Below are positions 2,729 to 52,856 of a stretch of DNA of 64,000 bases, piece by piece. Source of the stretch: Candidatus Flemingiibacterium merdigallinarum. GTDB lineage: Bacteria > Bacillota > Clostridia > Oscillospirales > CAG-272. The stretch is taken from contig CAJFKR010000004.1 of the NCBI GenBank assembly GCA_904386005.1, forward strand, positions 38,001 to 102,000, read 5' to 3'. The notes below the pieces were generated by a model. It was not told the DNA's origin and made no database searches. It saw nothing but the letters and a program-made list of their open reading frames with translations. The translations under genes and the position numbers were made by a program. Positions within the stretch are counted from its first letter, which is position 1; each line of letters begins with the position of its first letter.

Positions 2729-2841
2729 AAAATAATAACAGCGGATTGACCATATACGACAATGGAGCCGCGATTTGCGCGGCAAATAAACGACCACGCA
2801 TACGATATGAGCTAAGTCTGAAAATAAATTTTCAGACACGA

Positions 2842-2896
2842 GTTTTGTGACTTCGCGGTCTTCAACCGCGATTTGCTTCGCAAACCGTCACAAAAC
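2842..2896 (+). other. Predicted three-way-junction RNA structure between pheS and the kinase gene
   Basis: Outer stem GTTTTGTGAC/GTCACAAAAC with inner hairpins CGCGGT/ACCGCG and TTTGC/GCAAA; preceded by a 10-bp hairpin at 2816-2837. Confidence 0.5.
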
Positions 2897-2980
2897 ATCG
2901 ACATAGAAAGGTCCATATACGCAATAGTGTTTCGGCTGTATACGATACAAAACCACGATATACGCGATTGGAGACGGACA

Positions 2981-3541
2981 ATGTATACAATAGGAGTCGC
3001 GGGCGGCTCCTGCTCGGGCAAGACTACACTGACCGGCGCGCTCGAGCGCCGCTTCAAGGACGGCGGGCTGAATACAAGTGTCATACACATGGACTCCTTT
3101 TTCAAGAATCCGCCGCCGAGGACTGTCGCCCCATTTACGGGCGTCGAATACAAAGACTGCAACCACCCGAATTCGTTCAGGCTCGACGATTTCTACGCCG
3201 CGATAGACAACGCGAGGGCTTCGGCGACCGATATCGTCATAGTCGAGGGGCTGTTGGTGCTGTGGCTCGACGAGGCGCGGCAGAGGCTTGATTTGCGGAT
3301 ATTTGTCGACCTCGCGAGCGACGAGCGGCTCTACCGGCGCATCAAGCGCTTCATGCGCGACACAAACGAGACTATCGACGAAATCGCGTCGCGCTATCTC
3401 GATACGGTGCGCTTCAGGTACGACGAATTCATCGAGCCGTCGCGCTGGTACGCCGACCTTGTCATAAACGGCTCTGCCGACACGAATAGAAGCTCGGAGA
3501 TAGTATATCGCTATGTAAACGGTGAAATCCACGGCAAATAA
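2981..3541 (+). CDS. Uridine kinase/phosphoribulokinase family P-loop kinase
   Basis: MYTIGVAGGSCSGKTTLTGAL Walker A; uridine kinase-like length and HMDSFF motif. Confidence 0.85.
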   Translation: MYTIGVAGGSCSGKTTLTGALERRFKDGGLNTSVIHMDSFFKNPPPRTVAPFTGVEYKDCNHPNSFRLDDFYAAIDNARASATDIVIVEGLLVLWLDEARQRLDLRIFVDLASDERLYRRIKRFMRDTNETIDEIASRYLDTVRFRYDEFIEPSRWYADLVINGSADTNRSSEIVYRYVNGEIHGK

Positions 3542-6458: not shown

Positions 6459-7910
6459 ATGAAAAGGTTATTTTCGATATTATTGCTTTTTCTGCTCATC
6501 ACACAAACGGCGTGCGGTGATAAATCGGATGATGTGCCGTCAGACGATACTGAAAAAGTGAGTGAAACAGTAACTGACGAGACTGAACCCGAGTATGTAT
6601 TCCCAAATTTAGACTGGGATGGAGATACGTTCACTGTGCTGAACGCCAACACGACGTGGGGCTTCTACCACTATATGGATTTTGAGGAGCAGACCGGCGA
6701 GAAGCTCGACGACGCGATATATGAACGCAACCGTTCGGTCGAGGAAATGTACAATCTGACGCTTGAAATTGTCGAGGACGATATAGACACGAACTACGAA
6801 AAATATCGCACCTCGATACTCGCGCAGGACGATGTGTACGACGTCGCTTACATACGCTGCGACCGGATATCGTCGTTCATGGAGGAGGGCTATTTATACA
6901 ATCTGCTCGACTACCCAGAGTTTCAGCTCGACGAGCCGTGGTGGGATCAGGTCATACGTGAAAAATCACTGATCGGCGACAAGACAAAGCTCTATTTTGC
7001 CGGCAACGATTTCTCGCTGATCGGCTTTGAGGGCACGCTCTGCTGCTATTTCAACGAGAATATGCTCTATGACCTCGGACTCGAGACGCCGTATGATCTG
7101 GTTCGCGACGGCGCATGGACAATTGACAAGCTCCACGAATACGCGACCGCGGGCGCGAATCTTAATGGCGACAGCAGCTTCGCATGGGACGAAAACGGCA
7201 GCGCGATATACGGTCTCGCGTCATACGAGGACTCGTTGAACGCGTTTATAACCGGCGGCGGCGAGAGCTATGTTTCGATTGACGAAAATGGTCAGCCGGT
7301 GCTGCTGAATAACGCCGAGAAGTTCTACGATATTATAGACAAGGCATACAGCATATACAACACCGAGGGTGAATTTATATTTATGAACGGCAGCGGCAAC
7401 AGCCACTACGAGATGATATTCAAGAACGGTCGCTCGCTGTTCACTATAGCCGAAATCAAGGCAAGCTCGAAGTACCGCGATATGGAGGACACATTCGGTA
7501 TAGTTCCGATTCCGAAATACGACGAGGAGCAGGAGCAGTATTACAGCCATCGCACACACATATGTTTAGTGATGAGCGTACCGGTCACAAATCAGCGACC
7601 GGAGGACACCGGAAAGATCATGGATACATTCTCGTATCTGTCCTATACCGACATCTTGCCGATATTCTACAATGAAAAGGTCGCTCAGAAAGGACTCCGC
7701 AACGAGGAATCGATTGAAATGCTCGGCATCATTGCCGAGACTCGCAGCTTTGACATCGGCGAGGCTTACGCGTGGACCGAGGAGCTGTCCGGCGCGGTCA
7801 ATACATCGGTCGTAAATCAGAAGAACAACAACGTCGCGTCGCTGGTCGAGTCCTATCGTTCGGCGATTGAGGAGAGCTTCAAAAAGACGCTCGAATTTAT
7901 GGAGGGTTGA
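6459..7910 (+). CDS. Extracellular solute-binding lipoprotein (paralog 1)
   Basis: Lipobox signal MKRLFSILLLFLLITQTACGD; family 1-type sugar SBP features; similar to the CDSs at 18655 and 58413. Confidence 0.75.
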   Translation: MKRLFSILLLFLLITQTACGDKSDDVPSDDTEKVSETVTDETEPEYVFPNLDWDGDTFTVLNANTTWGFYHYMDFEEQTGEKLDDAIYERNRSVEEMYNLTLEIVEDDIDTNYEKYRTSILAQDDVYDVAYIRCDRISSFMEEGYLYNLLDYPEFQLDEPWWDQVIREKSLIGDKTKLYFAGNDFSLIGFEGTLCCYFNENMLYDLGLETPYDLVRDGAWTIDKLHEYATAGANLNGDSSFAWDENGSAIYGLASYEDSLNAFITGGGESYVSIDENGQPVLLNNAEKFYDIIDKAYSIYNTEGEFIFMNGSGNSHYEMIFKNGRSLFTIAEIKASSKYRDMEDTFGIVPIPKYDEEQEQYYSHRTHICLVMSVPVTNQRPEDTGKIMDTFSYLSYTDILPIFYNEKVAQKGLRNEESIEMLGIIAETRSFDIGEAYAWTEELSGAVNTSVVNQKNNNVASLVESYRSAIEESFKKTLEFMEG

Positions 7911-28841: not shown

Positions 28842-28853
28842 TTTTATTACCCT

Positions 28854-28873
28854 GACTTCGCGGCGGCGAAGTC
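28854..28873 (-). promoter_or_regulatory. Hairpin between SD-like tract and start codon (copy 1)
   Basis: GACTTCGC/GCGAAGTC 8-bp arms; GGAAAGGAA (minus) at 28874-28882; ATG at 28841. Confidence 0.6.
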
Positions 28874-29165
28874 TTCCTTTCCGTGTATAACGCCGCGATT
28901 CATGCGCGGGCTTGTTTTCGGATACAAACAGATATATGTTGATTTCAGTATAGCATATCACACGGGTAATGTCAAGCTTATATGTGAGATTTCGAAAGAA
29001 TGGCGGATCGGCTGAAAGAATTGCGATGACGGTATGAATATCGCTTCCGTTAATTGGTTGTGACTTGCATATGTGATTACAAATACGCTTTCGGCTGAAT
29101 TTGTGTCAAAATCCCAATAAACGGATATACTGCATAGTGAAAACACATATAAGGGGGCTTTGCCA

Positions 29166-48938: not shown

Positions 48939-49601
48939 TCATTTTGTAATACGGTCAATATCGGCGTTTTCACCGAGCAGCGCGACCGTTTCCTCGCCCG
49001 AGAAGGGCTTGGACGGGTCGGGGGAGATATCCATGCCGGTGACCGGGTCGTTGACGGCGAGAACGGTAACTCCGAGCTTGCGTCTGACGTCGAGCTCGGC
49101 GAGCGATTTGCCAATCCAGTTTTCGGGAACCGGAATTTCGACTATCGAATGCCGGTCGGAGAATTCGATATATTCAAGCACATTGTTGCGGTCGAGTATG
49201 CCGACCAGCTTTTCGCCCATGTCGCGCTCGGGGAAGACCACCATGTCAACCCCTAATTTTTCAAGCACGCGGCCGTGCTGGTCGCTGGCAGCGCGGGCTA
49301 CTATCTGTCCCACGCCAAGATCCTTTAGGTTTATTGTGGTCAGCACGCTGTCGGACAGGCGGGACGCTGTGGCGATAACTGCGCAGTCGTATTCGTGAAC
49401 GCCGGCAGCACGCAGCACGGCGTCATTGGTGGGGTCGCCCACCACGGCGTTTGTGACGATATCGCTGAGCGCGGTGACCAGATTGTCGTCGGGATCGATT
49501 ACCAGAACCTGATGTCCGGTTCGGGCGAGATTTGTCGCCAGAGTCTGACCGAAGCGGTCAAGACCGATGATAACGAATGAACGTGATTTGCTTTTTTTCA
49601 T
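48939..49601 (-). CDS. ktrA: Trk/Ktr potassium uptake regulatory subunit (RCK)
   Basis: FVIIGLDRFGQTLATNLARTGHQVLVIDPDDNLVTAL; RCK_C domain. Confidence 0.9.
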   Translation of the reverse strand: MKKSKSRSFVIIGLDRFGQTLATNLARTGHQVLVIDPDDNLVTALSDIVTNAVVGDPTNDAVLRAAGVHEYDCAVIATASRLSDSVLTTINLKDLGVGQIVARAASDQHGRVLEKLGVDMVVFPERDMGEKLVGILDRNNVLEYIEFSDRHSIVEIPVPENWIGKSLAELDVRRKLGVTVLAVNDPVTGMDISPDPSKPFSGEETVALLGENADIDRITK

Positions 49602-49613
49602 TGTATATAACCT

Positions 49614-49630
49614 GACTTTGTATCAAAGTC
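49614..49630 (-). promoter_or_regulatory. Hairpin between SD-like tract and ktrA start codon (copy 2)
   Basis: GACTTTG TAT CAAAGTC; AAGAAAGGC (minus) at 49632-49640; ATG at 49601. Confidence 0.6.
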
Positions 49631-49669
49631 TGCCTTTCTTAAAAATGAGCCCTGACAATAGAGCCCGGG

Positions 49670-52296: not shown

Positions 52297-52785
52297 TTAA
52301 AGCGGCTTTTCGTAATACAGCACCAGCTCGTCGTCCTCTATATCCCAGCGGACCAGCCGCGTATAGCCCCAGTGCAGATAGATCGCGAGATTGCGCGTCT
52401 CCTTGGCCTCGACGCCGATAGTTATGCGCTCATATCCGAGCGACCTCGCGTGCGCCTCGATCATACGCACAAGCCGCGAGATGTGGTGCTGACCCTCGTA
52501 TTGCTTGTCGATTCGCAGCGCGTTGACGTTGGCGACCGAATGCCCGTCGGCGATCTCGGGGCGACCAATCGCCGCGCCGCACTCGGGAGACTGTATAAGC
52601 GTGCCCTCTCCGACCGGTATCCCGTCGGCGGCGACTATAAATGTAGTCGCCATCTGCTTTTCGTTATAGCCGATGTATATGTCCCGCCAAATCGGCCAGC
52701 GCGGGTCGCCGGGATTGTCGGCGATATTCTTTTCCCAGATGAGCTTCAGCTCGTTCATGTCTGCGATTTTATAATCAAATTTCAT
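52297..52785 (-). CDS. GNAT family acetyltransferase
   Basis: VANVNALRIDKQYEGQHHISRLVRMIEAHARSLGYERITIGVEAKETRNLAIYLHWGYTRLVRW; ATG 52785. Confidence 0.8.
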   Translation of the reverse strand: MKFDYKIADMNELKLIWEKNIADNPGDPRWPIWRDIYIGYNEKQMATTFIVAADGIPVGEGTLIQSPECGAAIGRPEIADGHSVANVNALRIDKQYEGQHHISRLVRMIEAHARSLGYERITIGVEAKETRNLAIYLHWGYTRLVRWDIEDDELVLYYEKPL

Positions 52786-52795
52786 ATATGAACAC

Positions 52796-52815
52796 GACTT
52801 TGCAAGGGCAAAGTC
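52796..52815 (-). promoter_or_regulatory. Hairpin between SD-like tract and GNAT start codon (copy 3)
   Basis: GACTTTGC AAGG GCAAAGTC; GAGGGAGGTA (minus) at 52816-52825; ATG at 52785. Confidence 0.6.
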
Positions 52816-52856
52816 TACCTCCCTCATGTTAATGTCACCAAACTCGCAGGCTGTTA

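Follow-up and report, generated by a model that had tools for sequence, protein, structure and literature searches.

The hairpins that precede the start codons of three unrelated genes in the window (the whole stretch of 64,000 nucleotides that was analysed) are probably the 3' part of a MITE-like dispersed repeat, which in its intact form would act as a portable translation-initiation cassette. This reading builds on the insertion, the architecture, the covariation, the in-frame start and the synonymous constraint of the element, all of which are read directly from the sequences. In the proposed mechanism, insertion of the element would disable the Shine-Dalgarno (SD)-ATG pair of the host gene and the element would supply a replacement. 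The 30S subunit would pair with the element's own SD, and looping out hairpin C would shorten the 22-nt distance from there to the start to 2 nt and the width of one helix. Initiation would occur at the NTG codon that touches hairpin C. The protein would gain a short N-terminal M-V-I-x extension ahead of its native Met. Old copies would decay by losing the native SD together with modules A and B, all of which would be dispensable because the element's SD, hairpin C and tail suffice; in the decayed ktrA and GH36 copies, the native ATG would be used again, aided by AGGT or AGGG at 8 nt.

Architecture of the element and its copies in the window

The three hairpins of the original prediction read exactly as it had given them, and in a stem-agnostic scan of the window they marked the only real gene starts with this layout. 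Their parts, and those of a fourth copy, are the following:

48939..49601, minus strand: ktrA, a potassium channel regulatory subunit with TrkA_N and TrkA_C domains (Pfam PF02254, PF02080) and the same start Met in orthologues
49602..49613, minus strand: ktrA tail AGGTTATATACA, a decayed start in which AGG replaces NTG, with AGGT 8 nt before the ATG
49614..49630, minus strand: hairpin C upstream of ktrA, 17 nt with a 7-bp stem (GACTTTG/CAAAGTC)
49633..49638, minus strand: SD GAAAGG of ktrA, upstream of the hairpin and equal to the SD of hairpin-free orthologues
28842..28853, minus strand: tail AGGGTAATAAAA of the GH36-like gene, start decayed, with AGGG 8 nt before the ATG
28854..28873, minus strand: hairpin C upstream of the GH36-like gene, 20 nt with an 8-bp stem
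28874..28882, minus strand: SD tract GGAAAGGAA of the GH36-like gene
52786..52795, minus strand: tail GTGTTCATAT of the GNAT gene, with a GTG that abuts the hairpin and does not share the reading frame of the GNAT ORF (ATG at 52785)
52796..52815, minus strand: hairpin C upstream of the GNAT gene, 20 nt with an 8-bp stem
52816..52847, minus strand: collapsed module B remnant and SD of the GNAT copy (GCGAGTTTGGTGAC-ATTAACATGAGGGAGGTA)
2816..2837, plus strand: module A hairpin GTCTGAAAATAAATTTTCAGAC of the fourth copy
2838..2911, plus strand: module B and SD (..ACATCGACATAGAAAGG) of the fourth copy, without hairpin C

A usable in-frame NTG is absent from all three hairpin-bearing copies. These sites can be identified as decayed remnants of a larger element, because the fourth window copy has modules A and B and the SD, module B survives in collapsed form in the GNAT copy, and the larger element repeats upstream elsewhere; in the window genome (G000), the repetition extends upstream of many SD-hairpin-start copies. 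The GNAT remnant shows 2 and 3 mismatches to the ends of module B, for which the chance values are 0.00125 and 0.0005 per 60-nt stretch. A uridine-kinase-like gene (PRK domain, 2993-3541) lies approx. 80 nt past the fourth copy and uses its own SD.

The complete element is a dispersed, modular sequence of approx. 130 nt that comprises modules A and B, its own SD (GAAAGGWA), hairpin C and the codons NTG-GTN-ATH-ANN. Module A is an AT-rich hairpin (GTCTGAAAATAAATTTTCAGAC) and module B is branched, with a long stem (GTTTTGTGAC..GTCACAAAAC) around two hairpins; 3' of module B follow ATCGACATA, the SD GAAAGGTA, hairpin C and ATGGTCATAA. Compared with shuffled sequences, folding of the full element gave z = -7.9 in G000 and -5.1 in G060, and in the G000 fold the SD is single-stranded between B and C. 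Modules A and B also covary, with individual B-stem columns incompletely paired in alignment A2, partly through gap placement. In one copy (L087, G000:C48 about 7117-7250), TTTGAAGTCTTCGACTTCG hairpins are expanded in tandem within module B, which suggests slippage or duplication inside the element. Contigs C9, C12, C19, C20, C23, C24, C28, C36, C56, C80, C84 and C86 of G000 stop approx. 70-140 nt from an element or inside one; the element therefore breaks up short-read assemblies, and its copy number is underestimated.

That the hairpins are not due to chance, as had been claimed, is borne out by the counts. The palindrome GACTTYG-N3-12-CRAAGTC has 3 matches in the window versus 0.01 expected from dinucleotide shuffles, and 79 in the 3.49-Mb genome versus 2 for the reversed control pattern, which rules out chance or a simple repeat as its origin. 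The layout of SD, 2 nt, hairpin and start is found at about 58 of the 72 distinct genomic copies. Under a strict definition (SD at most 9 nt upstream and ORF start 0-21 nt downstream), 40 of the 72 palindromes qualified versus 14 of 4000 random positions, and the motif is thus not equally frequent away from starts. Approximately 14 of the 72 are part of other palindromic repeats (flanks GAGACCAC or CACATG), and most of the other 18 or so are copies of the element in which the hairpin is doubled, the SD is weak or the tail is broken. The geometry is tight: the gap between AAGG and hairpin is 2 nt in 99 of 118 copies, and that between hairpin and NTGG is 0-1 nt in all 120 copies having NTGG.

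A second palindromic repeat family with the same GACTTYG..CRAAGTC core has flanks GAGAGTGGTCTC/GAGACCAC or GTGGACAT/ATGTCCAC and is found in G000 at L017 2007-4300, L033, L036, L043 2006-2305, L046 and L054, with three tandem 49-nt units at L043. Searching Rfam with the window gave no match above the gathering score, the best other match having E=0.95. An intrinsic terminator was rejected, as no T-run follows hairpin A or hairpin C, and a transcription-factor operator was rejected because stem length, loop length and loop sequence vary yet the pairing is kept.

Insertion between the native SD and the native ATG

The complete element lies between the SD of the host gene and its native ATG, normally 2 nt before the ATG. 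An SD stands directly left of complete elements (..AGGAGGAAA|GTCTG, ..GAGGTGATA|GTCTG, ..AAGGAGGACAAA|GTTTG), and an SD match of at least 5 nt was found there in 33 of the 51 non-nested complete copies versus 5 of 51 control stretches. In-silico excision gave an aligned SD-ATG spacing of mostly 4-9 nt, near that of ordinary genes. Presence and absence at orthologous sites was observed between species: ktrA is hairpin-free in five out of five sister species, with AAAGG followed by ATG after 7-12 nt, ligA is hairpin-free in relatives and the GH36 orthologue in G005 lacks the hairpin. In G058, elements are nested directly behind the tail of an earlier element. Of the two sister genomes G103 and G280, the former has a complete copy, and the copy of G280 has lost the native SD, A and most of B and retains SD, C and tail. 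From copy dispersal, empty sites and nesting, we infer that the element has been mobile.

The ends of the element, GTCTG.. (GTCTGAAAA..) and ..GGTCATAA, are not inverted repeats; the element has no terminal inverted repeats (TIRs) and its flanks show no consistent target-site duplication (TSD). IS200/IS605-derived PATE/REP elements carry subterminal hairpins and have neither TIR nor TSD. The element resembles them in its hairpins and in lacking TIR and TSD, but differs in that a Y1 transposase is absent from the window genome and most carriers tested, and a guide/target motif is not demonstrated. No Y1 (HUH) transposase (Y1_Tnp) was found in G000, G001, G003, G005, G023 or G060; G058 and G103 each have one match with an internal stop, and G131 has one that is intact but weak. 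Mobilisation by IS200/IS605 was rejected because G000 lacks the Y1 transposase.

A more far-reaching proposal, which we put forward tentatively and with clearly less confidence than the cassette itself, is that of a mobile element that targets ribosome-binding sites (RBSs). Such an element would insert just after the SD, 2 nt before the start, its own hairpin-accommodated RBS and in-frame start would neutralise the insertion, and machinery that possibly works through single strands or RNA would have carried it across an order of Clostridia.

Start codons and proposed initiation across the hairpin

The original prediction had placed a spacer of approx. 12 nt between hairpin and ATG, and had taken this ATG as the start. 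The ATG is present, but in intact copies the supposed spacer consists of the four codons NTG GTN ATH ANN. Of 84 copies, 75 have the NTG in the reading frame of the main ORF and four more give ATGA overlaps. In a set of 51 distinct tails, GTN stands at codon 2 in 49 and ATH at codon 3 in 47; of the 36 changes at these two codons, 30 are synonymous versus 28% expected (p=6e-12), or 20 of 25 if each change enters only once per genome. Because of the in-frame NTG and the synonymous codons 2-3, intact copies probably start at the NTG abutting the hairpin and not at the downstream ATG, and the frame and codon tests led us to drop the native ATG as the universal start behind a 12-nt spacer. Among the intact-looking copies, a few have a broken tail or an NTG outside the frame.

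In a small number of copies, ktrA and GH36 among them, AGG or GGG has taken the place of the NTG, which would leave the native ATG as the start. With AGG in place of NTG in the window copies of ktrA and GH36, initiation is therefore probably back at the native ATG, for which AGGT in the ktrA tail and AGGG in the GH36-like tail may each serve as a local SD. The predicted ATG start is thus probably right for these two copies; NTG is favoured in most others.

SD and NTG lie 22 nt apart in the linear sequence, and the hairpin accounts for 20 of these. Leaving the hairpin out would reduce the distance to 2 nt plus the helix width, which is judged workable by analogy with T4 (PMC3014915) and agrees with the earlier claim that excising a hairpin between SD and start yields a usable distance. 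The 16S rRNA, including its 3' end, is absent from this MAG, and SD pairing was therefore judged with the general anti-SD. T4 genes 38 and 25 have an experimentally tested 'accommodated' (split) RBS with a hairpin between SD and AUG, and in gene 38 a 22-nt SD-AUG spacing is folded down to 5 (PMC3014915). The element likewise has a stable hairpin between SD and start, as a T4-type accommodated RBS requires, and the same linear 22 nt (here to the NTG) would be shortened by folding. In contrast to these single fixed genes, the element is dispersed on dozens of unrelated chromosomal genes, its probable start touches the hairpin, and its function is predicted from sequence. That the ribosome may loop out the hairpin is suggested by the T4 analogy and by the fact that housekeeping genes have kept this RBS.

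The best-surviving alternative, which we nonetheless regard as unlikely, is a parasitic palindromic repeat of the REP/BOX/RUP kind that is translationally inert, owes its position to intergenic tolerance and leaves translation to the native ATG and local weak SDs. It would account for the modular, lineage-specific, high-copy and nested organization, which is shared with BOX and RUP (PMC3049150), for the occurrence of the core palindrome in unrelated repeats, and for the AGG at normal spacing after the hairpin in ktrA and GH36. However, the insertion lies almost always between SD and ATG with fixed position and SD-hairpin gap, the NTG keeps its frame and synonymous bias, SD, C and tail are retained when A and B are deleted, and a downstream SD is absent from most tails. 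These observations argue against an inert repeat.

Stem variation, distribution and relation to known systems

The distribution was searched with a covariance model of SD, hairpin C and tail. The same architecture with different compensated stems was found in front of unrelated genes in further genera of this family and in one other family of the order, which extends the predicted dispersed element beyond the window genome. Stems differ by genome (GACTTCG, AACTTCG, GGCTTTC, AGCTTTCG, ACTTTTG, GCCTTCG) and partly vary within one genome; pairing alone is kept. Of the shared stem proposed earlier, the conserved pairing and a nearly invariant stem in G000 remain, but the stem sequence differs between genomes. 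Hairpin C covaries across genera with a score of 0.445 versus 0.215 for shuffled alignments, and with 23 two-sided changes versus 7.6 (0-4 in slid controls). Carriage is patchy, with at least 13 of 147 near relatives and at least 5 of 396 genomes order-wide, the latter being a lower bound because 15 candidates were scored per genome. Those carriers that have names are MAGs filed under Clostridia or Ruminococcus, and ruminants are the source of at least two of them (RUG11171, RGIG8808). Carriage by phages or plasmids was rejected, as no match to the element was found in phage and plasmid records.

The downstream genes include the housekeeping genes hisS, ligA, dapB, infB and recG (names mostly read from N-termini, part Pfam-scanned). 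They are seldom orthologous across genomes, with one clear pair (DJ-1-like) among 114 proteins plus the G103/G280 pair from the same genus; the comparison covered the sites fetched, which makes the absence of shared genes approximate. The association with related genes across species that is expected of a regulon leader or riboswitch was thus not observed. A trans-acting ligand for one shared stem, as suggested earlier, finds no support, since stems differ by genome and downstream genes are unrelated and unshared between carriers; a factor specific to each genome may still bind the stem.

A cis-regulatory regulon leader, in which a genome-specific factor binds hairpin C or an AUG-covering B5'-C3' pairing and switches translation, is slightly less probable than the inert repeat. 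It is consistent with the nearly invariant stem and variable loops in G000, and selection by a binding factor could also explain the homogeneity of stems within a genome. RNAalifold further predicts an alternative, covarying pairing of the B5' arm with the C3' arm plus AUGG (alignment A2 columns 36-46 with 125-135), which may mask the start or may just reflect the shared GACTTCG unit. Against such a leader stand the functionally unrelated and almost never orthologous downstream genes, the co-occurrence of several stem types in G005 and in G000, the frequent absence of A and B, and single-sequence folds, in which the switch pairing is less favoured than closed B plus C or local pairs. It is very improbable that hairpin C is an RNA insulator that keeps SD and start unpaired, with the native ATG reached over a loose 34-nt region by standby binding and sliding: the single-stranded SD between B and C in the G000 fold and the standby-site literature (PMC3936740) accord with it, but it leaves the conservation, reading frame and synonymous bias of the NTG unexplained.

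The element is short, non-coding, multi-copy and dispersed, as MITEs are. With BOX, RUP and SPRITE of pneumococcus (PMC3049150) and bacterial MITEs (PMC10969869), it shares a short, modular, palindromic, non-coding, high-copy, nested and lineage-specific nature. Unlike them, it lacks TIRs and TSD, is confined to the SD-ATG spacer and brings its own SD and start codon; the passages located in both sources describe no element of this kind. Rickettsia palindromic elements (RPE; PMC10969869) of approx. 150 bp are likewise palindromic, tolerated in many unrelated genes and a source of in-frame residues, but they lie inside coding sequences, whereas the element sits at the gene start and would add just 4 N-terminal codons. 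The element thus appears to behave like a T4 split RBS in its function and like a MITE in its dispersal, and without TIR and TSD it is assigned to neither family. As far as we found in the literature, an element with a complete translation start that settles in the RBSs of other genes is undescribed. Elements carrying promoters are familiar.

RBSs with a hairpin spacer are familiar from individual phage genes; in the present case, dozens of genes of one genome, including several essential ones, appear to be translated from such sites. Annotations may therefore give the wrong start codon and N-terminus for many proteins of these genomes, and the conserved parts of the element are candidate portable RBS insulators. 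If the proposal is true, the tolerance of the 30S subunit for structure in the SD-start spacer becomes testable, a question that tandem-hairpin copies widen. Four copies in G000 (L017, L038, L049 and L093) carry such a hairpin pair (TACTTTGC..GCAAAGTA and then GACTTYG..CRAAGTC) between SD and NTG, and each of them precedes an ORF of 270-633 codons.
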